The translations under genes and the position numbers were made by a program. Positions 173 to 20,800 of a stretch of 24,831 nucleotides of DNA are shown piece after piece; the first letter of the stretch is position 1; each line of letters opens with the position of its first letter. Source of the DNA: a virus. Where the stretch lies: the IMG/VR virus record IMGVR_UViG_3300022200_006376, positions 1-24,831 of that record; one strand, written 5' to 3'. A model generated the notes under the pieces. That model did not search any database, was not told the origin of the DNA, and worked only from the letters and a program-made list of their open reading frames with translations.

Positions 173-1594
173 ATGAGTAAGTTAGAAAATTTTTTAGAAA
201 GTACAGCTATTGTTGGACAGTTAGATGACGAGTATAATCTAATTGGTGCACTCGACGGATACTTAAATCTTACAAATGATTATATTTTTGTTTCAAGAAG
301 CAGTTATCCTAATTTAAGTGCTAATTGCCCTAATTCGTTTTTAGAATGTCAATTAGAACAAGAAATAAATAATCCTACTCCTGTTACTGGTGATAATTTT
401 GGTGTTTCTGTTTCTATAAATTCTACCGGTGATAGAATAGTAGTAAGTTCTCATTATGATGACACTGGTGCTATCGATGCTGGTTCTGTTTATGTGTATT
501 CTAGATCTGGTACAGTTTGGTCATTAGAACAAGAAATAAATAATCCTTCTCCTGTTGCTAGTGATTATTTTGGACGGTCGGTAGCAATAGATTCTACTGG
601 TGATAGAATAGTAGTAGGGGCTCATTATGAAGATACCGGTGCCGATGCTGCTGGTTCTGTTTATGTGTATTCTAGATCTGGTACAACCTGGACATTAGAA
701 CAAGAAATAAATAATCCTACGCCTGTTGCAGGTGATCAGTTTGGTGTTTCTGTTTCTATAAATTCTACCGGTGATAGAATAGTAGTAGGAGCTTCTCAAG
801 AAGATACCGGTGCCAGTGGTGCTGGTTCTGTTTATGTGTATTCTAGATCCGGCACAACATGGACATTAGAACAAGAAATAAATAATCCTTCTCCTGTTGC
901 TAGTGATCAGTTTGGACAGGTTGTATCTATTAATTCAACTGGTGATAGAATAGTAGTAAGTGCTTATTTAGAAGATACCGGTGCTAGTGAGGCCGGTTCT
1001 GTTTATGTTTATACTAGATCTGGTACAACTTGGACATTAGAACAAGAAATAAATAATCCTACGCCTGTTGCAGGTGATCAGTTTGGTGTTTCTGTTTCTA
1101 TAAATTCTACCGGTGATAGAATAGTAGTAGGAGCTTATTTGGAAGATACTGGAGCCAGTGGTGCTGGTTCTGTTTATGTGTATTCTAGATCAGGTACAGT
1201 TTGGTCATTAGAACAAGAAATAAATAATCCTACGCCTGTTACTGGTGATAATTTTGGTGTTTCTGTTTCTATAAATTCTACCGGTGATAGAATAGTAGTA
1301 GGAGCTTATTTGGAAGATACCGGTGCCGATGCTGCTGGTTCTGTTTATGTGTATTCTAGATCTGGTACTACATGGACATTAGAACAAGAAATAAATAATC
1401 CTTCTCCTGTTGCTAGTGATCAGGTTGGATATGCAGTTTCTATAAATTCAACCGGTGACAGGGTATTAATCGGTGCTTATGGTGAAGATACTGGTGCTCT
1501 TGCTGCTGGTTCTGTTTATGTTTATGCGTTAACTGAAAATACTACAGATTTAAAATTAAGAGGATTTAATGATTTTAATCATATTAAAATATAA
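173..1594 (+). CDS. Seven-bladed FG-GAP beta-propeller protein (probable tail-fibre/adhesin component)
   Basis: The 473 residues comprise an N-terminal segment (1-60), seven tandem 57-residue repeats (61-459) and a 14-residue tail. Each repeat follows the pattern LEQEINNP, then PV..D.FG, VSINSTGDRIVVGA, DTGA, AGSVYVYSRSG, TW. The FG, VVGA and aromatic-strand elements are typical of FG-GAP repeats, which form blades of integrin-alpha-like propellers; seven copies would close one ring. The N-terminal segment shares a pattern (NL.N.YI, then YP.L) with the next gene, suggesting a common attachment module. No signal peptide or membrane segment is seen. The role is probably binding of host surface or glycan; this rests on fold and neighbours. 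Classical calcium-binding DxDxDG loops are absent. The next gene starts 2 bases after the stop, so the two are probably co-transcribed. Confidence 0.85.
   Translation: MSKLENFLESTAIVGQLDDEYNLIGALDGYLNLTNDYIFVSRSSYPNLSANCPNSFLECQLEQEINNPTPVTGDNFGVSVSINSTGDRIVVSSHYDDTGAIDAGSVYVYSRSGTVWSLEQEINNPSPVASDYFGRSVAIDSTGDRIVVGAHYEDTGADAAGSVYVYSRSGTTWTLEQEINNPTPVAGDQFGVSVSINSTGDRIVVGASQEDTGASGAGSVYVYSRSGTTWTLEQEINNPSPVASDQFGQVVSINSTGDRIVVSAYLEDTGASEAGSVYVYTRSGTTWTLEQEINNPTPVAGDQFGVSVSINSTGDRIVVGAYLEDTGASGAGSVYVYSRSGTVWSLEQEINNPTPVTGDNFGVSVSINSTGDRIVVGAYLEDTGADAAGSVYVYSRSGTTWTLEQEINNPSPVASDQVGYAVSINSTGDRVLIGAYGEDTGALAAGSVYVYALTENTTDLKLRGFNDFNHIKI
353..1549 (+). repeat. Seven tandem 171-bp blade repeats
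   Basis: Units start at 353, 524, 695, 866, 1037, 1208 and 1379, exactly 171 bases apart. They are near-identical at DNA level apart from short variable patches. Units 3 and 5 share a long identical stretch, as do units 1 and 6. The array encodes the propeller blades and is a likely substrate for homologous recombination. Confidence 0.95.
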
Positions 1595-1596
1595 TA

Positions 1597-3036
1597 ATGT
1601 CTAATACTTACAACCTTATTAAAAATAATAAAATACAAACTGGTTCAACTGTGATTGTACCTGCGCAATTCTCATCTACTAGCTTTATAGAACTTAGTAA
1701 TAATTATATAACTTATATTGATAAAGCTATGTATCCATCATTAGCTAACATAGGAATGCCTGAAGTTAATTTAAGCGAATTAGAACAAGAAATAAATAAT
1801 CCTTCACCGGTTTCTGGTGATCGGTTTGGAAGTGCTGTTTCTATAAATTCTACAGGCGATAGAATAGTAGTCGGTGCTTATTTGGAAGATACCGGAGCTA
1901 ATGCTGCTGGATCTGTTTATGTTTATTCTAGATCAGGTACTACATGGTCATTAGAACAAGAAATAAATAATCCCTCTCCTGTTTCTTTTGATACGTTTGG
2001 ATATTCCGTTTCTATAAATTCTATAGGCGATAGAATAGTAGTAGGGGCTTCAAGTGAAGATACCGGAGCATCTAGTGCAGGTTCTGTTTATGTTTATTCT
2101 AGATCAGGTACAACTTGGACATTAGAACAAGAAATAAATAATCCTTCTCCTGTTATAAATGATTATTTTGGATTTTCCGTTTCTATAAATTCTACTGGTG
2201 ATAGAATAGTAGTAGGGGCTTATGGTGAAGATACCGGTGTTAATGCTGCTGGTTCTGTTTATGTGTATTCTAGATCAGATACAACCTGGACATTAGAACA
2301 AGAAATAAATAATCCTTCTCCTGTTGCTAGTGATCAGTTTGGACAGGTTGTATCTATTAATTCAACTGGTGATAGAATAGTAGTAAGTGCTTATTTGGAA
2401 GATACTGGTGCTAGTGGTGCTGGTTCTGTTTATGTGTATTCTAGATCTGGTACAACTTGGACATTAGAACAAGAAATAAATAATCCTTCTCCTGTTGACA
2501 ATGATCAGTTTGGTGTTTCTGTAACAATAGATTCAACTGGTGATAGAATAGTAGTCGGTGCTTATTTGGAAGACACTGGTGCTAGTGCTGCTGGATCTGT
2601 TTATGTTTATTCTAGATCAGGTACTACATGGACATTAGAACAAGAAATAAATAACCCTTCTCCTGTTGCTGAGGACCGTTTTGGATATTCCGTTTCTATT
2701 AATTCAACCGGTGATAGAATAGTAGTAAGTGCTTATTTGGAAGACACCGGAGCCTATGCTGCTGGTTCTGTTTATGTGTATTCTAGATCAGGTACAACTT
2801 GGACATTAGAACAAGAAATAAATAATCCCTCACCTGTTGCTAGTGATTATTTTGGATATTCCGTTTCTATAAATTCTATAGGCGATAGAATAGTAGTAGG
2901 TGCTTATTTGGAAGATACCGGTGCCGATGCTGCTGGTTCTGTTTATGTTTATTCGTCAGAATCATCTACTTCAAGTGTTATAGCAATACCCCCGCAGAAT
3001 TTACCATTAGGATTAAAAAATCTTATTAAAATATAG
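1597..3036 (+). CDS. Seven-bladed FG-GAP beta-propeller protein, paralogue of the preceding gene
   Basis: The 479 residues comprise an N-terminal segment (1-61), seven 57-residue FG-GAP blades (62-460) and a tail that matches the truncated gene at the window start. Blades keep the same skeleton as the upstream paralogue (LEQEINNP, D.FG, STGDRIVVGA, DTGA, AGSVYVYSRSG). They differ mainly at the residues before D.FG, at two or three residues after VV, and at the residues after DTG. Blade 4 is nearly identical in DNA to blade 4 of the upstream gene over about 85 bases. It starts 2 bases after the previous stop and is followed within 8 bases by the next gene. It is probably a receptor-binding or decoration protein on the virion, alternative or additional to its neighbour (inference). 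Confidence 0.85.
   Translation: MSNTYNLIKNNKIQTGSTVIVPAQFSSTSFIELSNNYITYIDKAMYPSLANIGMPEVNLSELEQEINNPSPVSGDRFGSAVSINSTGDRIVVGAYLEDTGANAAGSVYVYSRSGTTWSLEQEINNPSPVSFDTFGYSVSINSIGDRIVVGASSEDTGASSAGSVYVYSRSGTTWTLEQEINNPSPVINDYFGFSVSINSTGDRIVVGAYGEDTGVNAAGSVYVYSRSDTTWTLEQEINNPSPVASDQFGQVVSINSTGDRIVVSAYLEDTGASGAGSVYVYSRSGTTWTLEQEINNPSPVDNDQFGVSVTIDSTGDRIVVGAYLEDTGASAAGSVYVYSRSGTTWTLEQEINNPSPVAEDRFGYSVSINSTGDRIVVSAYLEDTGAYAAGSVYVYSRSGTTWTLEQEINNPSPVASDYFGYSVSINSIGDRIVVGAYLEDTGADAAGSVYVYSSESSTSSVIAIPPQNLPLGLKNLIKI
1780..2976 (+). repeat. Seven tandem 171-bp blade repeats
   Basis: Units start at 1780, 1951, 2122, 2293, 2464, 2635 and 2806, with a period of exactly 171 bases. They belong to the same family as the array at 353-1549, so fourteen complete cassettes lie within 2.6 kb, in addition to the fragment at the window start. 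Confidence 0.95.
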
Positions 3037-3044
3037 GAAATATT

Positions 3045-3512
3045 ATGCCAACTTTATACAAATACAATGAAAATAGAATATTTTCAGGAGCAATTGAAGT
3101 TCCTGAAGGAATATCATACTCGAACACCACTACAATTAAGCCAGATGAATCATTAAAAGTTCCTAAATGGATGGGAACTGGATTAGGATGGCAAGAAAAT
3201 ATAGTTCGGCACAAGACATATTTAAATGTTACTGCTGATAAAGAAATTTATAATGTTAATGAAAATATTACTATTAATGCAACTGTTAAAAATAATAACC
3301 AATTAGTTCCATTAACAGCAGATTATTATGTTCCCGTAATTCGAGATTCTGATGGAAAGCAAGTTGATTTTTTAACAATATCGTTTATAAATGGAGAATC
3401 GCTTTTTACATTTTCAATTTCTGAAAAAGGAAAATATTTAATTAATATGGATAAAATTACTCCAACACCTAAATCAGTATTAAGTAAAAACCTTAATTTA
3501 ATTATAGTATAA
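3045..3512 (+). CDS. Small virion-associated protein with Ig-like C-terminal half
   Basis: The 155-residue protein has no family I can name. Residues 1-50 are polar with a GLGW motif. Residues 55-155 alternate hydrophobic residues as beta strands and contain the pattern VTADKEIYNVNENITINATV, which resembles the first strands of bacterial Ig-like (BIG/CARDB type) domains. It lies in tandem between propeller genes and the collagen-like fibre, and an AGGAA precedes the ATG. This suggests a fibre accessory or connector domain protein. No signal peptide or membrane segment is seen. Function is inferred from position only. Confidence 0.6.
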   Translation: MPTLYKYNENRIFSGAIEVPEGISYSNTTTIKPDESLKVPKWMGTGLGWQENIVRHKTYLNVTADKEIYNVNENITINATVKNNNQLVPLTADYYVPVIRDSDGKQVDFLTISFINGESLFTFSISEKGKYLINMDKITPTPKSVLSKNLNLIIV

Positions 3513-3529
3513 ATGTAAACATATTAAAA

Positions 3530-3552
3530 GATAAATATATTAAATATATTTA
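3530..3552 (+). promoter_or_regulatory. Late promoter element GATAAATA overlapping a perfect inverted repeat
   Basis: GATAAATA at 3530-3537 is one base off the late consensus and lies 24 bases before the fibre ATG at 3562. It overlaps the left arm of a 9-bp inverted repeat, TAAATATAT (3532-3540) and ATATATTTA (3544-3552), with a 3-base spacer. The all-AT stem is too weak for a convincing terminator. AGGAA follows as ribosome site. Confidence 0.5.
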
Positions 3553-3561
3553 GGAATCAAT

Positions 3562-5316
3562 ATGGGATATATAGGAAATTCTCCAGAGTTTTATACAAAA
3601 GATGAGATCGATGACTTTTTTGACGACTTATCAGGTGTAACTAATCCAGCACAAGCTAGAGCTAATTTAGGAATTAATGGAACAGGTGACGGGTATACTG
3701 GTTCACAAGGCACGATTGGTTATACAGGATCAAGAGGTAATCCCGGTACTAATATTAATGTTGTTGGATCAGTTGCTTTAGTAGCGGATTTACCTGTTTC
3801 CGGTAATACTAATGATGCGTATTTTGTAGATGAAACAAATACACTATATGTGTGGGATGGTACACAATGGTATGATGCTGGGGCTATTGTAGGACCGGTT
3901 GGCGATACAGGATATGTTGGATCACAAGGTATAACTGGTTATACTGGGTCAAGAGGTAATCCCGGTACTAATATTAATGTTAAAGGCTCTATTTCTACAG
4001 TAGCTGATTTGCCTGCTTTTGGTAATACTAATGATGCTTATTTTGTAGATGAAACAAATACATTATATGTGTGGAATGGGATACAGTGGTATGATGCTGG
4101 TGCAATTGTAGGACCTATAGGTCCTACAGGATATGCAGGGTCGCAAGGCACGATTGGTTATACTGGATCAAGAGGGAATCCCGGCACTAATATTAATGTT
4201 GTTGGTTCGGTTGCTTTAGTAGCTGATTTGCCTGTTTCCGGTAATACTAATGATGCTTATTTTGTAGATGAAACAAATACATTGTATGTATGGGACGGTA
4301 CACAATGGTACGATGCAGGAGCTATTGTAGGCCCTGTTGGCGATACAGGATATACTGGATCATCAGGAGCAGATGGGACTATTGGAATTGATGGATATAC
4401 CGGTTCTGTTGGATATACTGGATCGATAGGTGTAAGCGGCACTAATGGATATACAGGTTCGCAAGGTATACCAGGAGAGTATGCTGCGGTAGGCTATACG
4501 GGATCAGCAGGAGTAAACGGTACTATCGGTGTTGATGGATACACCGGTTCACAAGGTACAATCGGTTATACTGGGTCAAGTGGTGATTTAGGTTATACTG
4601 GATCACAAGGTAACGATGGAATTGGTACTACAGGATATACTGGATCAGCAGGAGCTGATGGGACTATTGGAATTGATGGATACACCGGTTCAGTTGGATA
4701 TACTGGTTCACAAGGTAACGATGGAATTGGTACTACAGGATATACCGGTTCACAAGGTATACCAGGAGAGTATGCTGCAATTGGGTATACCGGCTCAGCA
4801 GGAGCAGACGGTACTATTGGAATTGATGGATACACAGGATCACAAGGCTTAATTGGATATACTGGATCAGCAGGTGATAGCGGAGGGAGTGGCTCATTAT
4901 CCGTTATAAATGATAGTAGTACTGATACTGTATATTATGTGAGTATGTCGGATGTGTCCGGTGGAACTTGGAGCAACGCATATGTTTCAACTACCAAATT
5001 ATTTTTTAATCCATCAACTGGAACATTAAATTCCACAATTTTTAATTCATTATCTGATAAAAATTATAAAACAAATATCAAGTTGATTGATAAACCGTTA
5101 GATACAATAAATTCATTATTAGGCGTTGAATTTGATTGGATTGATTCGTCGTTAAAATCAGCAGGGGTTATTGCACAAGACCTTGAATTAGTACTACCTC
5201 ATTTAGTTGATACTAGCGAAACTGGTGTTAAAAGTGTTAACTATTTGGGAATAATTGCGTACTTAATTGAAGCAGTTAAGGAATTAGATCAAAAATTGAA
5301 TATGAAACTAGGATAA
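3562..5316 (+). CDS. Collagen-like tail fibre with C-terminal S74 intramolecular chaperone
   Basis: The protein has 584 residues. Residues 1-50 resemble the N-terminus of phage fibres (NPAQARANLGI). Residues about 59-260 carry three 73-residue modules, each with an ADLP...NDAYFVDETNTLYVWDG..W...GAIVGP segment flanked by collagen-like triplets. Residues about 261-450 are Gly-X-Y triplets dominated by GYTGSxG (about 19 copies in the protein), with a few interruptions such as GEYAAVG. Residues 498-584 are a peptidase S74 chaperone domain: S498-D499-K-N-Y-K503 fits the SD..xK self-cleavage site, followed by GVIAQDLE and VNYLGIIAYLIEAV. S74 domains help phage fibres trimerise and then cut themselves off (family knowledge). 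The collagen region should form a triple helix; it has few prolines but many Thr at the Y position. This is the clearest tail fibre in the window. Confidence 0.9.
   Translation: MGYIGNSPEFYTKDEIDDFFDDLSGVTNPAQARANLGINGTGDGYTGSQGTIGYTGSRGNPGTNINVVGSVALVADLPVSGNTNDAYFVDETNTLYVWDGTQWYDAGAIVGPVGDTGYVGSQGITGYTGSRGNPGTNINVKGSISTVADLPAFGNTNDAYFVDETNTLYVWNGIQWYDAGAIVGPIGPTGYAGSQGTIGYTGSRGNPGTNINVVGSVALVADLPVSGNTNDAYFVDETNTLYVWDGTQWYDAGAIVGPVGDTGYTGSSGADGTIGIDGYTGSVGYTGSIGVSGTNGYTGSQGIPGEYAAVGYTGSAGVNGTIGVDGYTGSQGTIGYTGSSGDLGYTGSQGNDGIGTTGYTGSAGADGTIGIDGYTGSVGYTGSQGNDGIGTTGYTGSQGIPGEYAAIGYTGSAGADGTIGIDGYTGSQGLIGYTGSAGDSGGSGSLSVINDSSTDTVYYVSMSDVSGGTWSNAYVSTTKLFFNPSTGTLNSTIFNSLSDKNYKTNIKLIDKPLDTINSLLGVEFDWIDSSLKSAGVIAQDLELVLPHLVDTSETGVKSVNYLGIIAYLIEAVKELDQKLNMKLG
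3736..4340 (+). repeat. Three direct repeats, 219-bp period, in the fibre gene
   Basis: Copies begin near 3736, 3955 and 4174, exactly 219 bases apart. Each encodes the GNPGTNINV...YVWDG..W module plus part of the collagen-like linker. The first and third copies are closest (both NINVVGSVALVADLPVSG), the middle one more diverged, which fits past duplication or exchange. Confidence 0.85.
4345..4885 (+). repeat. Collagen-like Gly-X-Y coding repeat
   Basis: This is a run of 9-bp-phased triplet codons encoding mainly GYTGS, GADGTIGID and GNDGIGTTG units. Longer stretches recur: GADGTIGIDGYTGS appears three times and GIPGEYAA twice. The periodicity produces long spurious open frames on both strands. 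Confidence 0.85.
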
Positions 5317-5323
5317 TTAACGT

Positions 5324-8300
5324 ATGACTGCTGCTAAGGTTACAAGTCAATCAACAGAAGTAATATATTCATCAACTGCAGACCCAAATGTAAGGGTTAC
5401 TGGACAATCAACAGAAGTAATATATTCATCAACTGCAGACCCAAATGTAAGAGTTACTGGACAATCAACAGAAGTAATATATAGATTACCAAATGTACCA
5501 AATCTTAGGGTTACTGGTCAATCGATTGAAATACTACACAGTCGAGTTCCTAAAAACAAGTGCCTTAGAACAATTGATTTTAATGTAGTAAACCCAGATG
5601 CAGAAACTGGAGATACTACTGGCTGGACTAATGAAACTGGATATATGATAGCTGATGGTAGATTTCACAGCGGTACATACTGCTTCGGCGGAGGTCCAAA
5701 TGCTATTACATTAGCATCGTCTGATTCTATACTGTTAACAGATATAGGAATTGACGCAATTGAAGTAGATTTTAATCGAGTAATGGTTACTGTAAATTAT
5801 TGGCAAAGCTCGTATGCTTCGGCTGATTATGGATCAGTAGGAATTAGATTTTATGATGCAAATAATGCACAGATTGATGTGGATCATTTTGGAAAGTATG
5901 TATCGAGTGACCCATATCCAGAGTGGAATAGTCGATCAAATACATTCCTACTTCCAAAAAATACAAGAAGTATTAAGATTTTATTTCTTGGAGTACGGAG
6001 TAATGGAACAAACTTAGATTTTTATGTAGATGATATTTCACTACAGGCTACAGTTTATAACAATGGATTCCCACACTATATTTTTAATCACGATGCAGAA
6101 ACTGGAAACACTGCGGGTTGGACTGTAGAGCTTGGAAATCTTGGATTACGAACAGGATCTCAAATTTCAGGTACATACACCTTTTATGGAGAAAATACTA
6201 ATGAATTTATTGCATCGTCTGAATTTATAAATCTAATTCAAGATGGAGTTCCATTAACTGAAATTCAAGCTAGACGAGCATTTATGCAAGTAAGTTGTAA
6301 ATTAGGAACATATTCTAATCATCAAGATTACGGTTATTTAGGAGTGAGATTTTATGATGAATTTGATTCTATTATTTCCGAAACTTATGGAACACCTGAA
6401 GTGGGAAATTCAATTCCTAGTTTTATATTTAAAACAGAATCTTTTTTTGTACCAGAAACAGCAAAGAAAGCAAAAATATTAATAAGAGGGGTTAAAATTG
6501 ATGGCGTAAGCAATGCCGACGCTCACTTTGACGATATTACTGCTGTTACATACTGTTGTGTACCTAACGAAGAAAACTTTACAGTTCCAGTTGATAGAGA
6601 TCATACGTTATATAACTATTTTAGATCAGAACAAGATTCTGGTAAATTTTTTGAAAGTATTTACGTTAAATGGCACGAAGTTGGACTAACAGGACCAAAT
6701 CTTACTCCGGGGAAATTGTATGGATTTGGATGGAATAGATATGGACAATTAGGAATTAATAGCACAATTGATGTATCAGTACCTACTCAAGTAAGCACTT
6801 CAGGAAGCTGGAGAACAGTAGTAGTAGACCAAACAGCATTAGCAATCAAAACAGATGGTACATTATGGGGTTGGGGAAGAAATACATACGGGGAATTAGG
6901 ACAACGAGATAATGTTGATAGATCAACTCCAATTCAAATTGGATCAGATCGAGATTGGGTTGACATTGATACTACTAATTTAGGCTCGTGTGTAGCATTA
7001 AAATCAAATGGTACATTATGGGCATGGGGAAGAAATACATACGGACAACTTGGTCTAGACAGCCAAGTTGAAAACGATATAAGTTTTGGAGTATCAGTTG
7101 CATTATCGGGCAACGGAACAAAATTAGTAGTAGGATTAGTTAAGAGTGCAGCTACTGGCAATCGCGGAGGTTTTTATACATATACATTAAATCAAGGATA
7201 TTGGGAAACAATCGGACCAATTATTCAGTCAAATGATGGAACACTTGATGATAATGAAGGAATAACATGTACGTTATCAGACGACGGTTTAATGTTAGTG
7301 ACCGGAGTGCCCGGAAGAGCAGGAACCGGTGGTGACCTTGCAGTAGGAATAGTTATAACATATGATTGGGATAATGATAATAACGAATGGGTTCAACGAG
7401 GGAACTATTTATACCCACCTGAAATTGATGCAGTACCTCAATTAAGATTTGGAACCTCATGCTGCTTATCAAATGATGGATTACGATTAATAGTAGGAGC
7501 TGTTGGATATAACAGTAATCGTGGTAAAGTATACATTTATGATTGGAATACTAACACAGAGGTATGGGAGTTACATAGCGAAATAATTGAACCTAGTATA
7601 ACAGCATCGCAAATCTTTGGAAGATCGTGTTCGATTACTAGTAATAAAACAACAATAGCTGTAGGGTCATCGTATTATTCATCAGACGGCGCAGTCTTTG
7701 TTTATGATTGGAATGGAGCTATATGGGCTAGTCGGTCAGTAATTTTACCACCTGCAGCAGATGTAGATAGTTCTAGTTTTGCAGTATTTGGAATATCATG
7801 TTCAATGTCCGATGACGGATCTGTACTAGTTGTTGGAGCTGCAGGTATTGACAAACCTGATCTAGGCAACACTGTGATTACTGGAATAGCTGGAGGAATA
7901 AATTCAGTATGCTCAGATACTACTACTATACTTGATAATATTGTACCAGGATCACACCAATCAGCAATTAAAATTACAACTTCTGATGCAGTAACTGCAT
8001 CAGTAACTTCAGTAGCATATGTAACTCCAGATAATTCATTATTACAAACGATTATTTCAACTACAACAACTGACAATACATACGATGATGAATCTTACGA
8101 TATCTCTCCACCTTGGAGTGTGGAATATTTAGGACAGACATATCAAAATGTGTTTTATGGATCTAACGGATATATAACATTTGGTGCAGGTAGCACATCT
8201 TATAGTGGTTTAAGTAGCACTAATCCTAGTTTACCTAAGATTTTTATTTTTGGGAATGATAACGTATTAACCGGATTATGGACAGGTACTGAAGGAACTA

Positions 8301-9460
8301 CACCTAATCGTGTACATAGAGTAGTAATCAATACCACATTCGATTATTATAATGACCTTGGATTTGATAAAACTCCAGTTACGTATGAAATTAGATTTTT
8401 TGAAAATGCTCCATCTGAAATAGAAATACATTTTTTAAATGTAGCAGGGAGCAATATAACAACTTCTTCTCTATTTACAGATAATCTAGGAGCAGTGTAT
8501 ATTTACAATTGGAATACTGGAGGTAACCAGTGGGATGTACATAGTAAAATTTCAGCTTCTGATCAAACCGCAGGAGACTTTTACGGTATTTCGTGTTGTA
8601 CAACATTTAACGGCGACTCTATTGTTGTAGGATCATATAGATGGGACGATACCGATGGCTCAGGTGCTCAAAATGCAGGCGCAGTGTATACCTATGCTTC
8701 TGCAGGGGACACTTGGATTTCTGCAGCAGAATTATTAACACAAATTGATTATAGTCCAGAGTTTTATCCAATCCAAGTTGGAACAGATCGGGATTGGAAA
8801 CAAATAGAAATGAACGATCGATCTACGTATGCAGTTAAAGATGACAATTCACTATGGTCGTGGGGCCGTAACTATAGCGGCCAATTAGGTATTAACAATA
8901 CAGTTGACTACTCATTCCCTACGATGATCGGTTGGGATAGAGACTGGAAAAAAGTAACTGCTGGAGCATACGGAAATGTTTTCGCACTAAAACAAGACGG
9001 AACACTCTGGTCATGGGGATTTAATGACTATGGACAGTTAGGACATAACGATGTAGTTAGTAAATCAACTCCTACACAAGTAGGAGTTGATGCTGATTGG
9101 GTAGATGCTGCAACTTCATGGCACACTAGTATTGGTCTTAAATCTAATGGAACAATATGGGCTTGGGGGAGAAATTTTTACGGCGAGCTAGGCCAAGGAC
9201 ACAGAAATGCACTTTCAGTTCCAACTCAAATCGGATTTAAATCAGACTGGAAACATGTGTCGGTATTCGGTTGGGGTACGTTATTTATAAATACATCAGG
9301 CGAATTATGGGGATGCGGATCAAACAGTTACGGAGTCTTTGATCCAGCAACTGCACCTAGTCATGTTTCAATTGCAACTCAAATAGGTACAGATACATAT
9401 TGGAAATCGTTTAGCAAATCTAGTAAATCAAGTTCAATTATGGGCATAAAGTTTATATAA
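5324..9460 (+). CDS. Giant multidomain adhesin: jelly-roll modules plus RCC1 propeller with nested FG-GAP propeller
   Basis: The protein has 1,378 residues. Residues 1-75 hold three to four copies of a 19-residue repeat (STEVIYSS..DPNVRVTGQ), a type seen near the N-terminus of phage fibres. Residues about 88-245 and 253-410 are two similar carbohydrate-binding-like modules (DAETG.T.GWT at the start, FYVDDIS or AHFDDIT near the end). From about 464 come RCC1-type blades (LWGWGRN.YGELG, STP.Q.G.D.DW). Blade 3 breaks off at about 579, and FG-GAP-like blades fill about 580-1142. The RCC1 series then resumes and gives seven blades in total. The FG-GAP section is itself interrupted at about 848-1053 by another beta-rich domain. 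The open frame is continuous, so this is a real architecture rather than a frameshift. The stop is 9 bases before the next gene. Likely role: host-recognition fibre protein (inference). Confidence 0.75.
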   Translation: MTAAKVTSQSTEVIYSSTADPNVRVTGQSTEVIYSSTADPNVRVTGQSTEVIYRLPNVPNLRVTGQSIEILHSRVPKNKCLRTIDFNVVNPDAETGDTTGWTNETGYMIADGRFHSGTYCFGGGPNAITLASSDSILLTDIGIDAIEVDFNRVMVTVNYWQSSYASADYGSVGIRFYDANNAQIDVDHFGKYVSSDPYPEWNSRSNTFLLPKNTRSIKILFLGVRSNGTNLDFYVDDISLQATVYNNGFPHYIFNHDAETGNTAGWTVELGNLGLRTGSQISGTYTFYGENTNEFIASSEFINLIQDGVPLTEIQARRAFMQVSCKLGTYSNHQDYGYLGVRFYDEFDSIISETYGTPEVGNSIPSFIFKTESFFVPETAKKAKILIRGVKIDGVSNADAHFDDITAVTYCCVPNEENFTVPVDRDHTLYNYFRSEQDSGKFFESIYVKWHEVGLTGPNLTPGKLYGFGWNRYGQLGINSTIDVSVPTQVSTSGSWRTVVVDQTALAIKTDGTLWGWGRNTYGELGQRDNVDRSTPIQIGSDRDWVDIDTTNLGSCVALKSNGTLWAWGRNTYGQLGLDSQVENDISFGVSVALSGNGTKLVVGLVKSAATGNRGGFYTYTLNQGYWETIGPIIQSNDGTLDDNEGITCTLSDDGLMLVTGVPGRAGTGGDLAVGIVITYDWDNDNNEWVQRGNYLYPPEIDAVPQLRFGTSCCLSNDGLRLIVGAVGYNSNRGKVYIYDWNTNTEVWELHSEIIEPSITASQIFGRSCSITSNKTTIAVGSSYYSSDGAVFVYDWNGAIWASRSVILPPAADVDSSSFAVFGISCSMSDDGSVLVVGAAGIDKPDLGNTVITGIAGGINSVCSDTTTILDNIVPGSHQSAIKITTSDAVTASVTSVAYVTPDNSLLQTIISTTTTDNTYDDESYDISPPWSVEYLGQTYQNVFYGSNGYITFGAGSTSYSGLSSTNPSLPKIFIFGNDNVLTGLWTGTEGTTPNRVHRVVINTTFDYYNDLGFDKTPVTYEIRFFENAPSEIEIHFLNVAGSNITTSSLFTDNLGAVYIYNWNTGGNQWDVHSKISASDQTAGDFYGISCCTTFNGDSIVVGSYRWDDTDGSGAQNAGAVYTYASAGDTWISAAELLTQIDYSPEFYPIQVGTDRDWKQIEMNDRSTYAVKDDNSLWSWGRNYSGQLGINNTVDYSFPTMIGWDRDWKKVTAGAYGNVFALKQDGTLWSWGFNDYGQLGHNDVVSKSTPTQVGVDADWVDAATSWHTSIGLKSNGTIWAWGRNFYGELGQGHRNALSVPTQIGFKSDWKHVSVFGWGTLFINTSGELWGCGSNSYGVFDPATAPSHVSIATQIGTDTYWKSFSKSSKSSSIMGIKFI
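5351..5540 (+). repeat. 57-bp tandem repeat, three good copies and a degenerate fourth
   Basis: TCAACAGAAGTAATATATT recurs at 5351, 5408 and 5465, with a diverged copy at 5522 (period 57). The first two units are nearly identical over their full length. They encode the 19-residue STEVIYSS..DPNVRVTGQ unit. Confidence 0.9.
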
Positions 9461-9469
9461 GGAAGAGTA

Positions 9470-10168
9470 ATGAAATACGCATTAATTTATAATGGCACAA
9501 TACAAGTAGGTCCTAGAGATTGGATGTACTCTGCATTTTTAGACTTTTTAACAAGTAAGTTAATAAGTGTAGATACTTTACCGGTTACTGCACCGAATAC
9601 ACCAATTACAACAGAACAATACAAAATTTTACCAGTTTATTACACCAGACCCATTTATAATCAAAGATTTCAAACACTCCAAGGGCCGTTCTATCAAATT
9701 GAAGAAACTTATGTATCAGCAACATATAATATAGTAGACCAAGATATTAATATCTTAAAATCACAACTAAAGACAGCAGTTTCAGCACAACGATACGATG
9801 CTGAAACTTCTCCGCTTTCGTACACATTTAAAGATGGTGAAACTGTGCAGTTGTATACATCCCGTGAAGATAGAAGAGTGTACTTAGATATTTTATTATC
9901 ATTGCCAGACTCTGAATCTATTATGGTAAAATATTATGATGGTAAATTTAAATTAACAAGCAAAGAAGATATATCTGCTATAGTAAATCTAGGAAGACAG
10001 CATATTACATCTGTATTTGCATGGGAAGAAAGCAAATATAAATCAATCGATGCAGCACAAACGATAGCAGAATTAAAAGCAATTGGAGTTACTCATCCGT
10101 TAAATCGAACTGTAGAAGAAGTAGTATCATCGGTTATACCAGATGGCGTATTTATAGGGATTAACTAA
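9470..10168 (+). CDS. Fibre-associated phage protein, DUF4376-like
   Basis: The protein has 232 residues. The N-terminal half (1-90) is a small alpha/beta region. The C-terminal half, from about residue 100, contains VSAQRYDAETSPLSY.FKDGETVQLYTSREDR, which resembles the DUF4376 domain found in phage tail-fibre-linked and fibre-assembly proteins (from memory, moderate certainty). It lies between two large propeller adhesins with gaps of 9 and 6 bases, and AAGGAAGAG is a strong ribosome site. It may help fold, attach or cap the adjacent fibre protein. No catalytic motif, signal peptide or membrane segment is visible. Confidence 0.55.
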   Translation: MKYALIYNGTIQVGPRDWMYSAFLDFLTSKLISVDTLPVTAPNTPITTEQYKILPVYYTRPIYNQRFQTLQGPFYQIEETYVSATYNIVDQDINILKSQLKTAVSAQRYDAETSPLSYTFKDGETVQLYTSREDRRVYLDILLSLPDSESIMVKYYDGKFKLTSKEDISAIVNLGRQHITSVFAWEESKYKSIDAAQTIAELKAIGVTHPLNRTVEEVVSSVIPDGVFIGIN

Positions 10169-10174
10169 TTAACA

Positions 10175-12820
10175 ATGAAAAATTTAAGCATACTAAATTT
10201 TAAGGAAGACTTTGAAGATATTATAGATATCTATGTAGCTAAAGAATGGATAAGTTTAATTGACAATAGATTTTTAACCGAGCAAGGACAAAATTTAAAA
10301 TTCCAAATATCAGGCAATTTAGTAGGATGGGGAACTAGTTACAATAGTGAGTTAATGTGGGATATACCATTAAATAGTACGTACACTGTAAATATAACCG
10401 AAATCCCAAATATTACACAACCTGCATTAATAGGCAGGAATATTGCTAAAATGGATGCCACTTATAATACTAATGGCGCAGTTTTTTTAATTGATACTAA
10501 CAATAAATTGTGGGGAATGGCAGCACAACAGGTAAATTCTACTCTTGGAGATCTGCAATATCCTACCGGGGGAACTTATACAACGCCGATTCCTTTAAAC
10601 CCAGAGTATTCGTGGGCATCTGTAAAAACAGATGCTGATTACCATACACTAGGTTTACAAACTAACGGTACATTATGGGCATGGGGATGGGATAGTCAAG
10701 GGGAGATAGGACAAAATTTACCAGAAGACACATACAATGAACCTGTTCAGATAGGAACCGATTCCGACTGGGTTGAAATTGGTTGCATGGAGCAAGCTTC
10801 GTATGCTAGAAAATCAAACGGTACTATTTGGTCATGGGGGTACAACTTAGACGGTCGGCTAGGCCATGACGATATTGTTAACATTAACAGATCATCTCCA
10901 ATCCAAATAGGAACCGACACTGACTGGGCTGCAATTGTTGTATCGGAATATCAAACAGTGTATGCGCTAAAAACAAATGGAACGCTATGGTCATGGGGGA
11001 AAAACTCTAGCGGACAGTTAGGCCATAATGACACCATTAATAAATTATATCCCATTCAAGTAGGAACAGATACAGATTGGGCTATTTTACCAAATAAAAT
11101 AAGTGGAGTATCTATGGCTGCAATAAAAGCAGACGGTAGTTTATGGTCATGGGGGTACAACTTAGACGGTCGGCTAGGACACAATGACACTATTTATAAG
11201 TCCACTCCAACACAAGTAGGAGTTGATACTAACTGGACGTCGATTTCAATAAATTACATTTTTTTAGGGGTAAAAACTGACGGAACTCTGTGGGGGTGCG
11301 GTGATAACAGCGCAAACTTGATAGATTATGCAACAATTACTAATAAATCTACCCCAATGCAAATTGGAACCGATTCAGATTGGAAAGAAACACTAAGTAC
11401 AGCAGCACACTTTGCATATGCTACTAAAACTGATAATACACTATGGGCATGGGGTGAAACTTGGTCATATTTAACAGGATTTACAACAGGGGATCTAAAG
11501 GATATATATCCAGCACTTACAACTCCTACTTCAATATCTAAAGAATCGAACTGGGAAAGTGTAATAACAAATACTACTGCATATGTAGCTACTAAAACAG
11601 ACAAATCTGTATGGGGCTGGGGATATAATACATATGGCGGATTGGGATTGAATAATAATATTAATGAAGTTTCTAAACCAACATTAATAACATCGATTAC
11701 TGACTGGACAAAAATATCAGTAGCTAGTCGAAATGTATTTTTTTTAAAGCAAGACGGTACTATATGGGGAGCTGGATACAATACGCGAGGACAATTGGGG
11801 CAAAATGATATAATTCATCGATCAACTCCTACTCAAGTAGGTTTAGATACCGACTGGATAGACATTTCTGCAGGTAGGTATGTAGTTTTAGCATTAAAAG
11901 CAGATCAATCATTGTGGGCATGGGGCGATAATAGAGAAGGTGCACTAGGTACTAATGATTTGATCTATAGGTCAACTCCTACGTTAATTAGCAGCGATGC
12001 ATGGGCATACATACAAACTTATTCAGATTCATCATATGCAATTAAAACAGACGGATCTCTTTGGGCATGGGGTGAAAATGGAAGAGGACAATTAGGGTTA
12101 AACGACACATTTGCTAATAAGCTCATACCTACTCAAGTAGGTTTAGATACTAATTGGAAGAGTGTGAAAAATGGATTCTCCCATGCAATTGCAGTGAAAA
12201 CAGATGGAACACTATGGTCATGGGGTTGGAATGAATTTGGCGAGTTAGGTCTAGGGCAAGATGTTCCTTATAGAAGTACTCCTACGCAGATAGGTGCAGA
12301 TACTGATTGGGAAGAGCCATTATCTGCACCGGAATACAGCGGAGCATTAAAAACAGATAATACATTATGGGTTTGGGGAATTAACGACGATGCACAGTTA
12401 GGTAATGGAAAAATAGACCCGTCGTATAAAGGAAAGTATAACTCGCGTATTCCAATTCAAGTTGGGTCTGCAACTAACTGGAAAAGTATTAGCTTTGCAC
12501 GATATGCAGTTTTTGCAGTAATTGAACCTCTTGCTGAAAATTTAAATCAAGACCCTATTATTGATAATTTATATTGGAGTTCGGGTCCAACAGTTGCTGT
12601 AGGAGTACCAGTCCAATTATTTTGGGAAACAACACATGCATCGTCTGTTAATTATTATATTAGTGGATTAGGCGGAAGCGATAATCTCGCTCCAGATGAT
12701 TCTTCATCTACTATTGTATTTGAAATAACAGATGTTGGTAAAAAATATACAGGAACAGTTACAGCATATAATAGTATTGGAGTATCAGTTTCTGCTTCTG
12801 TTAATTTAACAGTAGTTTAA
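10175..12820 (+). CDS. Fourteen-blade RCC1-repeat adhesin with C-terminal Ig-like domain
   Basis: The 881 residues comprise a short N-terminal segment (1-45), fourteen RCC1-like repeats (about 48-790) and an Ig/PKD-like domain (about 793-881, ending in SVSASVNLTVV). Repeats follow the pattern LW.WG.N..GQLG.ND.....STP.QVG.DTDW......A..KTDG. Blades 1, 2, 7 and 8 are degenerate (for example LWGMAAQQ, LWGCGDN). Fourteen is twice seven, so two complete seven-blade propellers in tandem is the natural reading. In eukaryotes RCC1 binds chromatin; in a phage structural cluster the fold is far more likely an extracellular binding head. The start lies 6 bases after the previous gene. No signal peptide is present, as expected for a virion protein. 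Confidence 0.75.
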   Translation: MKNLSILNFKEDFEDIIDIYVAKEWISLIDNRFLTEQGQNLKFQISGNLVGWGTSYNSELMWDIPLNSTYTVNITEIPNITQPALIGRNIAKMDATYNTNGAVFLIDTNNKLWGMAAQQVNSTLGDLQYPTGGTYTTPIPLNPEYSWASVKTDADYHTLGLQTNGTLWAWGWDSQGEIGQNLPEDTYNEPVQIGTDSDWVEIGCMEQASYARKSNGTIWSWGYNLDGRLGHDDIVNINRSSPIQIGTDTDWAAIVVSEYQTVYALKTNGTLWSWGKNSSGQLGHNDTINKLYPIQVGTDTDWAILPNKISGVSMAAIKADGSLWSWGYNLDGRLGHNDTIYKSTPTQVGVDTNWTSISINYIFLGVKTDGTLWGCGDNSANLIDYATITNKSTPMQIGTDSDWKETLSTAAHFAYATKTDNTLWAWGETWSYLTGFTTGDLKDIYPALTTPTSISKESNWESVITNTTAYVATKTDKSVWGWGYNTYGGLGLNNNINEVSKPTLITSITDWTKISVASRNVFFLKQDGTIWGAGYNTRGQLGQNDIIHRSTPTQVGLDTDWIDISAGRYVVLALKADQSLWAWGDNREGALGTNDLIYRSTPTLISSDAWAYIQTYSDSSYAIKTDGSLWAWGENGRGQLGLNDTFANKLIPTQVGLDTNWKSVKNGFSHAIAVKTDGTLWSWGWNEFGELGLGQDVPYRSTPTQIGADTDWEEPLSAPEYSGALKTDNTLWVWGINDDAQLGNGKIDPSYKGKYNSRIPIQVGSATNWKSISFARYAVFAVIEPLAENLNQDPIIDNLYWSSGPTVAVGVPVQLFWETTHASSVNYYISGLGGSDNLAPDDSSSTIVFEITDVGKKYTGTVTAYNSIGVSVSASVNLTVV

Positions 12821-12874: not shown

Positions 12875-14221
12875 ATGAACCAGCAAGACACTTTTTATAA
12901 CATATTAAACTCGAATATTGTTTCAAATGAAAAAGATTTGAAGGATTTTTTGAGAATTTCTTCAAAGTATTCAACTGATTTAGCATGTTTAGATACTATA
13001 GGGCAGATACAATCGAAAATTAAAGATTACGAAAACTGTATTAGCACGCTCCATCGATGCATCGACACTGCAACTACACCGCAGCAAATTACAGCTATTC
13101 GAATTAATTTGGCAAAAACATATAATTTAATTAACGACCCTCAAAAAGCTATACAGCAATTGTTATATATTCAAAAAGTTCTACAAAATAACGATAGTGA
13201 TATTTTAATGGAGTTATCACTATCGTACTACTTATCAGCAAATTATAATAAATCAAAAGAGATATTAGAGTCAATCTTAGAAGTTGAGAACATTCCTGAA
13301 AAACTAAAAAATAGAGTAGAATATAATTTAGCTACTTATCGCATTGCTGAAGGACAATTTAAAAAAGGATTAGCAGACTATGTGTATAAAGGTTGTGCAA
13401 TTGGTATTTGGAAAACTATAGAGATAGATAATATTCCAATGTGGGACGGAACTATTAGGGAAAACTCTACTCTTTATATATTCGGTGAAGGCGGAATCGG
13501 TGATGAAATAGTTTGTTTTAGGTTTGCAAAATACTTAAAGCAAATAGGTATTACTCCAGTTTGGATCACTACTCGACCTGATTTAAAAGACATATTTGAA
13601 CAACATGGAGTAGATACATTATTAGATAAAAGTAAAATTACTAAAACTAAAAATTCTTATCGATGTAACTCTATGATGCTTCCTGTGTTATTAGATCTTG
13701 ATGAAACACAAGTATGGTTTGGAAGTTATTTAAAACCGTCAGATGAATACTTGACAAAATGGGAAGAATTACTCCCACAAGGTAAAAAACTAGCATGTAA
13801 ATGGGAAGGCAGTCCTTACTATGAACAGCAGCTACATAGATCTATACCGTTTGAATATATTGACCATTTACAATTTGACGGTACAAAAATAAATTTACAA
13901 TTAGAACCTAGTAATGCTAAAAGTAATATGTTTAATGCCGGACAGTACATTAATCATATTAATGATACATTGGCAATTTTATATTTGTGCGATTTAACTG
14001 TTACTAGCTGTACTTCTATTGTACACATAGCAGGAGCTATGGATTGTTCTACTATAGTATGCCCTCCAGTGGCAGCATACTATGTGTGGATTAATTGCAA
14101 AAATAACAAGTCATATTGGTATTCAGATAAAGTTAAAGTATTTCAGCAACAACAACATAAAAACTGGGAAAATGTATTTACTCAAGTTCAACAAGAGATA
14201 ATCAATGAACAATTCATATAA
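12875..14221 (+). CDS. TPR-containing glycosyltransferase, heptosyltransferase/GT9-like
   Basis: The protein has 448 residues. The first half (about 10-160) is helical with TPR-like spacing (LDTIGQIQSKIKDYENCISTLHRCI; NLAKTYNLINDPQKAIQQLL). The second half begins with GEGGIGDEI (204-212), the nucleotide-sugar glycine loop of GT9-type GT-B enzymes. It ends with a region around residue 372 (DLTVTSCTSIVHIAGAM, CPP, WYSDKVKVFQQ, NW) typical of TPR-linked bacterial glycosyltransferases. It likely transfers a sugar to a protein or polysaccharide acceptor in the host cytoplasm; the TPRs may hold the acceptor. Its 3' end overlaps the next gene by 17 bases, pointing to coupled translation. The specific sugar cannot be read from sequence. 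Confidence 0.75.
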   Translation: MNQQDTFYNILNSNIVSNEKDLKDFLRISSKYSTDLACLDTIGQIQSKIKDYENCISTLHRCIDTATTPQQITAIRINLAKTYNLINDPQKAIQQLLYIQKVLQNNDSDILMELSLSYYLSANYNKSKEILESILEVENIPEKLKNRVEYNLATYRIAEGQFKKGLADYVYKGCAIGIWKTIEIDNIPMWDGTIRENSTLYIFGEGGIGDEIVCFRFAKYLKQIGITPVWITTRPDLKDIFEQHGVDTLLDKSKITKTKNSYRCNSMMLPVLLDLDETQVWFGSYLKPSDEYLTKWEELLPQGKKLACKWEGSPYYEQQLHRSIPFEYIDHLQFDGTKINLQLEPSNAKSNMFNAGQYINHINDTLAILYLCDLTVTSCTSIVHIAGAMDCSTIVCPPVAAYYVWINCKNNKSYWYSDKVKVFQQQQHKNWENVFTQVQQEIINEQFI

Positions 14222-14903
14222 TCGTCAAATATCACATGCGTATATTATTACTGTAAAAGGCAATAATAAATCAGAAACTCTTTCGAAACGAGCTCAAGAA
14301 ACTTGTGAAATGGTAAATCAACCATTTAAAGTGTGGGATGCGGTTGAATATAAAGATAAAGCTATTCATTTTCCATCACATATCAGTGAAGATAACATAG
14401 TTAGATTTTTAAAAATGACTAATCGATATCTTACAGGAGGCGAACTTGCATGTGCATTATCGCACATCTCATTATGGTTTGAATGTTTGAAAATTGATCA
14501 ACCGATAATCATTTTAGAACATGATGCTGTTATGATTAAAAAATTAGAGTTCCATCCATTTTTTAATAGTGTGTTTTATTTAGGATGTCAGGAATATACA
14601 AAATCAATGCCGTCTGTTCCAATACCGTTGTATGCATCAGATGGTAAAAACAATTTATTCATATGTAGAGCTCACGCATATGCAATCGATCCGCATGTGG
14701 CAAAAAACATGTTGTCATATGTACTTCAACATGGAATTGTTGACCCGTTAGACTTTTTAATTCGATCTGATTTATTTTCTATTCAATACGATGGAACTAT
14801 TTATGCGTATGATATGCCAGATGATACTACTATATTAAATAGAGATCAACGGAGTGAAAGCGGCTATCGACTAGCAATACCTAATGATAATTTAGAAATA
14901 TAG
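14205..14903 (+). CDS. GT25-family-like glycosyltransferase
   Basis: The 232-residue protein has the layout of GT25 (LPS biosynthesis and collagen galactosyltransferase superfamily). AYIITVKGN is at the start, GGELACALSHISLW in the middle, and LEHDAVM (E105, D107) stands in for the usual LEDDA metal site. AYAIDPHVAKNML and DPLDFLI follow. The His within the acidic motif is a variation to note, but both acidic residues remain. It starts 17 bases inside the upstream glycosyltransferase gene, so the two are made together. Bacterial relatives add galactose or glucose to lipo-oligosaccharide; animal and mimivirus relatives act on collagen hydroxylysine. The fibre's collagen-like region has no lysine, so that exact chemistry is excluded for it. 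Confidence 0.75.
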   Translation: MNNSYNRQISHAYIITVKGNNKSETLSKRAQETCEMVNQPFKVWDAVEYKDKAIHFPSHISEDNIVRFLKMTNRYLTGGELACALSHISLWFECLKIDQPIIILEHDAVMIKKLEFHPFFNSVFYLGCQEYTKSMPSVPIPLYASDGKNNLFICRAHAYAIDPHVAKNMLSYVLQHGIVDPLDFLIRSDLFSIQYDGTIYAYDMPDDTTILNRDQRSESGYRLAIPNDNLEI

Positions 14904-14939: not shown

Positions 14940-16133
14940 ATGGCTGTTCGATTTTCTAGTTCAAATGTAGACTTAGATAATATTTTACTTAGACGAGGAT
15001 TGTATATTAACGTAGCAGAACCGGTAATGCCTAATTCTATATACTTATCAGGATATGTTGGGGATATAAACACAAGTGTACTTCCTGATGCTGGATTAGC
15101 AAACTTGTCAACACCGGTTCAACTTACGACAGACACTCAATGGGTCAGCATATCGTTAGGCGATCCAAAACCTATGTTCTTAATTAACTCGGAAAATCAA
15201 TTATTTGTGCTAGGCGATGATATAGGATTTAGTCAAACTGTTTACTCAAATGGACTAGGTGACCGATTTGATAGCCATCCTAGTCCAGTTCAAGTAGGTA
15301 CAGATGCTGATTGGAAATCAGTATTTGTTAACGATCAATATAATGTTTTTGCATTTAAAAACGATGAGTCTGTATGGTGCTGGGGATTTAATAGTAAAGG
15401 AGTGTTAGGGTTGAACGATACCGTATTTAGGTCAACACCTGTACTGTTTGCTTCCTCTGGGTGGAGTAGTATTCATGGAGGGCGTGAATGGTCAATTGGT
15501 CTGAAAACTAATAATACACTATGGGCATGGGGATCTTTAACCAATGGTCTAAGTGGAAATAATAACGGTTCGATAACTCGATCAAGTCCTATACAAGTAG
15601 GCATAGATACAGATTGGCAAAAAATCAAAGGCGGCAGATATAGTGCCTACGGATTAAAACTAGATGGGTCTCTTTGGACATGGGGAAACAATACATTTGG
15701 ACAATTAGGACATAATGAAGTAATTAGTAAATCGACCCCAGTTCAAATAGGGTTCACTATAGAGAAAGATTGGAAAGATGTCTTTGTTGGATACGAGTCT
15801 GCTTATGCTATAAAAAATGACGGTACGCTATGGTCATGGGGAAACAATGCAAACGGCCAGTTAGGAGTAGGTACAACACTTCCATTATCATCACCTACTC
15901 AAGTTGGATTTGATACAGATTGGCAAGAGGTATTCCCGTATACATTGGGAGTATTTGCTAAAAAAACTGACGGATCGTTATGGGCGTGGGGATATAATAA
16001 CAAAGGACAACTAGGATTAAATTCAACATTACAAACATTATCTCCAACACAAGTAAGTACTGTTGGGAGTTCAACTAAAATAGTATCGATACTAGACGGT
16101 GACATAGGCTATACTGCTTTCTTTTTAACTTAA
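14940..16133 (+). CDS. Seven-blade RCC1-repeat protein (probable adhesin)
   Basis: The 397 residues comprise a short N-terminal segment (1-33) and seven RCC1-like blades (about 35-397). The first two blades are diverged (IYLSGYVGD, LFVLGDDIG) and the last five canonical (SVWCWGFNSKGVLGLND, TLWSWGNNANGQLG, STP.QVGFDTDW). The whole protein is thus one predicted propeller without extra domains, the minimal form of the fold used in the 881- and 1,378-residue proteins upstream. It has its own late promoter element and lies between two groups of sugar-enzyme genes. Host-surface or glycan binding is the likely role (inference). A cytoplasmic role linked to the glycosyltransferases cannot be excluded. 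Confidence 0.75.
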   Translation: MAVRFSSSNVDLDNILLRRGLYINVAEPVMPNSIYLSGYVGDINTSVLPDAGLANLSTPVQLTTDTQWVSISLGDPKPMFLINSENQLFVLGDDIGFSQTVYSNGLGDRFDSHPSPVQVGTDADWKSVFVNDQYNVFAFKNDESVWCWGFNSKGVLGLNDTVFRSTPVLFASSGWSSIHGGREWSIGLKTNNTLWAWGSLTNGLSGNNNGSITRSSPIQVGIDTDWQKIKGGRYSAYGLKLDGSLWTWGNNTFGQLGHNEVISKSTPVQIGFTIEKDWKDVFVGYESAYAIKNDGTLWSWGNNANGQLGVGTTLPLSSPTQVGFDTDWQEVFPYTLGVFAKKTDGSLWAWGYNNKGQLGLNSTLQTLSPTQVSTVGSSTKIVSILDGDIGYTAFFLT

Positions 16134-19559: not shown

Positions 19560-20800
19560 AAACTATATTAATAGCAGTTCCAACTAATCGATATATCGAA
19601 CCGGAAACATTTAAATCAATTTACGATTTAACTATACCTAATGGATATAAAACAGAATTTCAGTTTTTTTACGGTTATCAAATAGACCAAATTAGAAATT
19701 TAATAGCCGAATGGGGGAAACGCTATGATTATTTATTTTGTGTAGATTCAGATATCAAATTGCCAAAAAATGCGTTATTTAATCTAATACAAGCAAATAA
19801 AGATATCGTAACAGGGTTATATATACAACGGATACCAAATAGTCATACACTTGAATTGTATAAAGATAATACTGCAGGAGGAATGAACAATATACCATAT
19901 AATGAAATTAAATCATTACCTTTAGTACCCGTTGACGGATGTGGTTTTGGTTGTGTTCTTATAAAAGGAGAAGTTATTCGAGCATTGCCTTATCCGCATT
20001 TTGTATATAAATCAGCGTTAGATCATCGATATACATTTTCTGAAGATGTATATTTTTGTCGAAAAGCAAAAGAACATGGTTTTGAAATTTGGGCAGATAC
20101 TACAATAAAATGCGAGCATATAGGAAAGTATACATTTAAAGTTGATTCTGATGAATATATTAGGCATGTAGCATTGCGAAACATGGATTTACTGCCGCAT
20201 GTACATGTAGACTATTTAAAAACATTAAAAATAGAGCCTAAAGTAATTTATGACATTGGTTCTAGTGTTATGCATTGGACTGATAAAGCAAGAACTATTT
20301 GGAAAGATGCACAATATTTTTTAGTTGATGCAACAGTTGAATTGGAAGAACTGTATAAAGCAGAAAATGAAAACTATTATATAGGTGTAGTATCTGATAA
20401 AAATAATAAAGTGGTTAACTTTTATTGTGATGTAATGAATCCCGGGGGTAATTCCTATTATAAAGAAAATACAGCAGCATATAACGAGTCACATAAACAA
20501 GTTAGAACAACTATTACATTAGATACAATTGTTGATATATCACAGTGGCCTTTACCTGATTTAATTAAATTAGACGTCCAAGGATCGGAAATTGATATTT
20601 TAAAAGGTGCTGTTAAATGTTTGTCTAATAATCCAGATATTATATTAGAAGCGCAACACGTTGATTATAATGCTGATGCTCCTAAAATTGCAGAAGTTAT
20701 GGAATTTATGACACAACAAGGATATCGTTTAGTTAGTAATTTCTGTACTACTCAAGTAGACGGGGATTATCATTTTACTAAAGATGTTATAGTAAATTAA
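19556..20800 (+). CDS. GT2-like glycosyltransferase fused to FkbM-type methyltransferase
   Basis: The protein has 414 residues. Residues 1-215 are a GT-A domain: ILIAVPTNRYIEPETF at the start, and D64-S-D66 as the metal-binding DxD after YDYLFCV. VDGCGFGCVLI and SEDVYFCRKAKEHGF follow, as in phage and bacterial GT2 proteins. Residues about 228-414 are a SAM-dependent methyltransferase of FkbM type. It has YDIGSS for the SAM loop (a variant of the usual DVGANxG) and the hallmark DLIKLDVQGSEIDILKGA from residue 335. FkbM enzymes methylate hydroxyls, often on sugars, so one polypeptide may add a sugar and cap it. It overlaps the upstream gene by 4 bases and the convergent Nudix gene by 14 bases. 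Confidence 0.8.
   Translation: MKTILIAVPTNRYIEPETFKSIYDLTIPNGYKTEFQFFYGYQIDQIRNLIAEWGKRYDYLFCVDSDIKLPKNALFNLIQANKDIVTGLYIQRIPNSHTLELYKDNTAGGMNNIPYNEIKSLPLVPVDGCGFGCVLIKGEVIRALPYPHFVYKSALDHRYTFSEDVYFCRKAKEHGFEIWADTTIKCEHIGKYTFKVDSDEYIRHVALRNMDLLPHVHVDYLKTLKIEPKVIYDIGSSVMHWTDKARTIWKDAQYFLVDATVELEELYKAENENYYIGVVSDKNNKVVNFYCDVMNPGGNSYYKENTAAYNESHKQVRTTITLDTIVDISQWPLPDLIKLDVQGSEIDILKGAVKCLSNNPDIILEAQHVDYNADAPKIAEVMEFMTQQGYRLVSNFCTTQVDGDYHFTKDVIVN

Follow-up and report, generated by a model that had tools for sequence, protein, structure and literature searches.

A probable phage tail adhesin in which an interrupted FG-GAP-type propeller is nested in a blade of an RCC1 ring

Introduction

How are the parts of a protein arranged when RCC1 blades stand on both sides of a long series of FG-GAP-like blades within a single gene? 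The question is raised by a viral record of 24,831 bases (IMG/VR virus record IMGVR_UViG_3300022200_006376), which was analyzed over its whole length and is called the window here. One of its open reading frames (positions 5324 to 9460, plus strand) encodes a protein of 1,378 amino acids, and an initial annotation proposed that it holds one propeller inside a blade of another. In this study, we used profile searches, structure prediction, and comparison with related phages to ask whether the two propellers are indeed nested or follow each other in series, and what such a protein might do.

Results

The frame reads through all of its 1,378 codons without a stop, and both insert junctions are also present in a second contig (IMGVR_UViG_3300025655_005034, here L009), so the view that all parts lie in one open frame holds. 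L009 differs from the window by 17 mismatches across 19.4 kb, none of them within 5324–9460; given these mismatches outside the frame, it is a different assembled sequence, and the two carriers of the nested frame represent one virus species. When the viral collection was scanned with the complete protein, with the insert, with the third domain described below (domain D), and with the neighboring FG-GAP gene, L009, from this same virus, was the sole match. The assembler might be suspected of having made a chimera by joining an RCC1 gene to an FG-GAP gene, since the window contains many near-identical repeats (FG-GAP copies that are ∼85% identical), which can confuse assembly, and a source of error could be common to both contigs. 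Yet L009, with its other differences, has both junctions, the reading frame is maintained across all four junctions, a search for DNA scars gave no close match of the insert DNA elsewhere in the window, and there is no clear break in composition at the insert, with GC content at codon position 3 similar along the frame. We therefore consider a chimera very improbable; the nested architecture is real.

The RCC1 part is recognized both by the Pfam RCC1 family (PF00415; E = 2.2e-51, 172.7 bits against a cut-off of 21.7) and by the RCC1-like domain (PF25390; E = 2.9e-57, 195.1 bits against a cut-off of 150). A blade profile constructed in this analysis places blades at residues 469–514 and 515–565 and a partial one from residue 566, and, after the insert, a partial blade at 1148–1177 followed by full ones at 1178–1228, 1229–1278, 1279–1327, and 1329–1377. 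Blades 1 and 2 and the first part of blade 3 thus occupy residues 465–580 (6716–7063), and the remainder of blade 3 with blades 4 to 7 occupies residues 1142–1378 (8747–9457), in the order originally proposed. The two partial blades are complementary—LWAWGRNTYGQLGLDS, before the insert and scored alone, corresponds to profile positions 1–15, and YPIQVGTDRDWKQIEMNDRSTYAVKDDNS, after it, to positions 22–50—and the profile positions absent between them form a loop with the consensus TTTNRS, which means that the insert replaces a loop and that no strand is lost. As the initial annotation had counted, the total comes to seven only if the two pieces of blade 3 are joined (two blades, the complementary halves, and four blades). 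This count is informative because viral RCC1 proteins have seven blades or multiples of seven: exactly seven were found in 162 of 212 distinct viral RCC1 frames, with further peaks at 14, 21, 35, 42, and 49 (the RCC1 and FG-GAP sets come from the top 80 loci per search). In an alignment of residues 440–1378 with 45 viral RCC1 rings that have no interruption, the longest gap fell at residues 580–1141 in 44 of the rings, within one residue of the limits first given for the insert (580–1142).

Structure prediction points to the same arrangement. AlphaFold2 was run on residues 440–1378 with an alignment of the 45 natural insert-free rings, from which FG-GAP rings were excluded because they were misplaced onto RCC1 columns. 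Block-mean pLDDT was 80–97 for model residues 21–140 and 711–890, 55–82 in the last RCC1 blade, and low in the insert; along the blades, values were mostly 84–96 for blades 1 and 2 with the first part of blade 3, and 81–97 from the rest of blade 3 through blade 6. The first structural match listed was HERC2 RLD2 (351 residues aligned, model residues 22 to 938, 1.9 Å, Z = 47.9), followed by other RCC1-type rings; as the RCC1 flanks total only ∼357 residues, the 351 aligned residues imply that both flanks share one seven-bladed ring. The rows of that alignment run across the insert, which makes the prediction dependent on them, whereas the half-blade match is independent. Taken as a prediction, the model shows the two flanks forming one closed seven-bladed RCC1 ring, and hence a ring split by an insertion, as was suggested at the outset, rather than two rings in series. 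If the domains were instead arranged in series, the RCC1 pieces would be separate partial rings flanking the FG-GAP ring or would pair with other chains. A blade split at a ring boundary would also leave positions 1–15 and 22–50 on its two sides if the first and last strands of a ring pair, and boundary splits of this kind do exist in the bacterial loci L231 and L235, where Fn3 domains lie between half-blades about every 440 residues. In the phage protein, however, two blades and a part stand before the insert and four and a part after it, so that neither side makes a ring while the joined pieces give a count of exactly seven. In addition, the flanks superpose together on a single ring, and 44 of the 45 single rings bridge the gap. 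Against this evidence, a serial arrangement has very little probability.

The insert itself had been described as ∼560 residues of FG-GAP-like blades, a description that stands for the FG-GAP assignment but not for its extent: the blades make up only ∼355 residues, and a further domain (residues ∼844–1052) had been missed. FG-GAP_2 (PF14312) scores 46.2 bits against a cut-off of 23, with four stretches, in residues 581–847 alone and 49.1 bits over the whole protein. A separate prediction of residues 565–1153, based on an alignment of 19 phage FG-GAP rings, yielded six sets of four strands, 24 in all (pLDDT 70–95 in most blocks), and one long unmodelled stretch, model residues 280–488, which corresponds to residues 844–1052. 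Integrin alpha propellers were its best structural matches (Z = 26.9, 321 residues, 4.2 Å), as expected for FG-GAP, and the difference between six and seven blades may explain the rmsd. On either side of the unmodelled stretch lie FG-GAP profile positions 5–29 and 33–58. The insert would thus comprise FG-GAP-type blades 1 to 4 and the first half of blade 5 (residues 581–843; 7064–7852), supported by PF14312, the predicted strands, and the integrin match, and the second half of blade 5 with blade 6 (residues 1053–1141; 8480–8746), supported by a PF14312 stretch at 1070–1124, profile positions 33–58, and the prediction. The ∼200-residue domain D therefore splits FG-GAP blade 5 and brings the nesting to three levels. 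Seven blades were found in 20 of 33 viral FG-GAP frames from relatives, in a search of the viral collection that used a two-row alignment, compared to the six predicted here; a blade may have disappeared, or D may have taken its place, and the data fit equally a loop insertion in an intact six-bladed ring and a replacement of the seventh blade.

Domain D (residues ∼844–1052, conserved core 881–1047; 7853–8479) is recognized by its homologues in related phages. One, matching residues ∼881–1047, is a separate 286-amino-acid protein of the freshwater Synechococcus phage S-SRM01 (47% identity over 57 residues), and others lie within RCC1 proteins of two viral contigs, L132 and L139; the L132 copy leads on to similar stretches in tail-fiber genes of Stenotrophomonas and Xanthomonas phages. 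D matched no Pfam family at the cut-off, gave no vWFA match in Pfam at E values up to 10, and had no significant sequence match in the PDB.

The genes around the nested frame form a tail-fiber cluster, with an S74 fiber, a DUF4376 protein, a sheath stabilizer, and a head-tail adaptor in the window and synteny with S-SRM01. The order S74 fiber, RCC1, DUF4376, RCC1, TPR protein is common to both phages and includes, on the plus strand of the window, a collagen-like fiber with an S74 chaperone end (3562–5316), syntenic with the S-SRM01 tail-fiber gene; a DUF4376/tail-fiber-like protein (9470–10168), also syntenic; and a free RCC1 protein (10175–12820) of 12 to 13 blades by the blade profile and without any insert longer than 60 residues. 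A second free RCC1 protein with seven blade matches follows at 14940–16133, and two neighboring genes upstream (173–3036) each encode a free-standing seven-repeat FG-GAP ring (PF14312, seven stretches each). The sheath stabilizer and neck proteins of this jumbo-type bacterial virus are nearest to those of the jumbo phages Phosso, Atu_ph07, and PA5oct. RCC1 rings free of an insert, looked for as a check on the nesting, were found in number, and the one at the syntenic place in S-SRM01 is a plain RCC1 protein of 344 amino acids (QPX48300.1). RCC1 alone and D alone in S-SRM01, as well as FG-GAP rings alone in the window, show the parts as separate genes; since they nevertheless lie in one frame with intact junctions here, the modules exist on their own without this contradicting the nesting. 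Two further features of the neighborhood may be mentioned. The two FG-GAP genes (173–1594 and 1597–3036) consist of ∼57-residue repeats and share ∼85% DNA identity in several registers, which suggests a recent duplication, or else gene conversion among the repeats. TPR-containing and glycosyltransferase-like genes (12875–14903 and 16839–20800) are interspersed with the tail genes, an arrangement also present in S-SRM01, and perhaps serve to glycosylate virion proteins.

The N-terminal part of the nested protein (residues 81–460; 5564–6703) comprises two similar ∼180-residue domains of a phage tail protein type. It matches a PHROG virion structural family (6.1e-13) and a tail-fiber family (6.9e-6), has tblastn matches in phages XacN1 and VpV262 (“tail appendage”), and resembles MAM weakly (E = 0.009, below the cut-off). 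Ahead of it, the first ∼75 residues (5324–5563) are near-perfect VTGQSTEVIYSSTADPNVR repeats. In the Rak2-like phage GAP32, mass spectrometry showed the RCC1-like protein GAP_001 to be one of the structural proteins (PMC5259590), and the Rak2-like jumbo group is the one nearest to the neck and sheath-completion proteins of the window. Together with the PHROG virion and tail-fiber matches, the presence of GAP_001 in GAP32 virions makes a virion role of the nested protein likely, by analogy and by sequence similarity; from this setting we infer an adhesive, receptor-binding role. A real nesting could also serve another end: the protein might help to build the tail, baseplate, or whiskers, or it might act inside the cell. 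GAP_001 itself is known as a virion component only, without an assigned function (PMC5259590). The S74 collagen-like fiber and DUF4376 neighbors and the occurrence of D in tail-fiber genes fit a receptor-facing protein better, as would the exchange of modules between related phages, and we regard a role other than adhesion as unlikely.

Inserts were also found in other RCC1 arrays. In L132 (frame 4707–8573), D lies within RCC1 blades and is preceded by only 1.5 of them, which places it inside the first ring. In L139 (frame 3081–10760), an array of ∼42 blades with uncertain ring boundaries and with DUF4376 and TPR neighbors as in the window, D occupies the same blade loop as the FG-GAP insert does here (RCC1 profile positions 1–13 before it and 21–50 after it). 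A PA14-like domain, named by eye from the sequence, interrupts an RCC1 blade in frames of ∼1,875 amino acids in L104 and L081, apparently in blade 5 of the first ring. Blade counts place the inserts of L104 and L132 inside a ring. With both D and PA14-like domains found inside other rings, phage RCC1 rings take up inserts repeatedly. Among the top 80 loci per search, the combination of RCC1 with FG-GAP was not seen in any other of the 212 viral and 95 bacterial RCC1 frames, nor did any other viral FG-GAP frame contain RCC1 blades. Among bacteria, Chryseobacterium loci L231, L235, and L268 encode giant RCC1 proteins in which seven blades are followed by one Fn3 domain, with split closing blades. 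The Fn3 domains beside half-blades in L231 and L235 were tried as insertions and rejected, their regular spacing putting them between rings, and these two loci are accordingly not counted as parallels.

Discussion

Our results are best explained by a three-level nested surface protein of the virion, probably a host-binding tail adhesin, that would have arisen by module shuffling. The seven-bladed RCC1 ring would serve as the scaffold; in the loop of its blade 3 that follows GQLG, a whole six-bladed FG-GAP-type propeller would replace the usual half-dozen residues, and blade 5 of that propeller would in turn hold the ∼200-residue domain D in a loop. The nesting may have come about when modules that this phage and its relatives also encode as stand-alone genes were shuffled, and it would be tolerated since a propeller begins and ends at adjoining points, which lets a complete ring be suspended from a loop while the host ring stays unopened. 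Several binding surfaces carried on one stalk could then allow wider or stronger attachment to host surfaces. The early suggestion that one binding head was grafted onto a loop of another has thus become our preferred explanation, supported by the single split ring, with the binding itself inferred.

Insertion of domains into propellers is already known; the phage protein stands out in that its insert is also a propeller, from a second family, with an interruption of its own. DDB1 has three propellers. It was dropped as a parallel because the source says only that its BPB (residues 400–704) is removable. Closer to our case, the RCC1-like ring of UBR5 is interrupted by a UBA domain in blade 2 and by a dSBB domain in blade 5 and still closes (PMC10830417). 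Like the phage protein, UBR5 has a seven-bladed RCC1-type ring with inserted domains, and it is among the structural matches (8e0q, Z = 18.5), but it is a eukaryotic ubiquitin ligase whose inserts are small, are not propellers, and hold no further nesting. Integrin alpha, the top structural match of the phage insert, carries an inserted I domain of ∼200 residues in its FG-GAP propeller (PMC12422189), an insert similar in size to D. Its propeller, however, has seven blades and does not lie inside another ring, and its vWFA-type I domain stands between blades 2 and 3, whereas D lies within blade 5 and showed no relation to vWFA in the Pfam search. S-SRM01 QPX48300.1 occupies the same place in a conserved gene order, and its RCC1 blades are 36% identical, but it lacks the FG-GAP insert, D, and the N-terminal tail domains and shows, by eye, six blade starts of the LWxWG type. 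L132 and L139 share with the nested protein a D homologue in the loop of an RCC1 blade, and L139 also the DUF4376 and TPR neighbors, yet both have a single level of insertion, and the insert is not a propeller. In the literature and structures searched, we did not find any case in which one propeller is placed within a blade of another and in turn contains a third domain, and no publication combining RCC1, FG-GAP, phage, and nested propellers was found.

The locus offers a concrete case in which phages may build multi-headed surface proteins by loading the loops of rigid rings and not only by joining domains end to end, and, as D turns up in different propellers across related phages, the question of permissive insertion sites can be tested. 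More tentatively, and with some doubt on our part, we suggest that the loop after GQLG in phage RCC1 blades could serve generally for docking, with whole binding domains being spliced into it again and again by aquatic jumbo and T4-like phages. If so, the FG-GAP ring, D, and the PA14-like inserts would make up nesting-doll adhesins up to three levels deep, in which docking at this loop would change the bound target while the scaffold is kept. Outside RCC1 proteins, a frame of phage C48C1 (L025, 2012–6454; WJE88002.1) has FG-GAP rings that, judged by eye, seem to lie inside cadherin-like domains, and it would seem to be another propeller hung from a loop.
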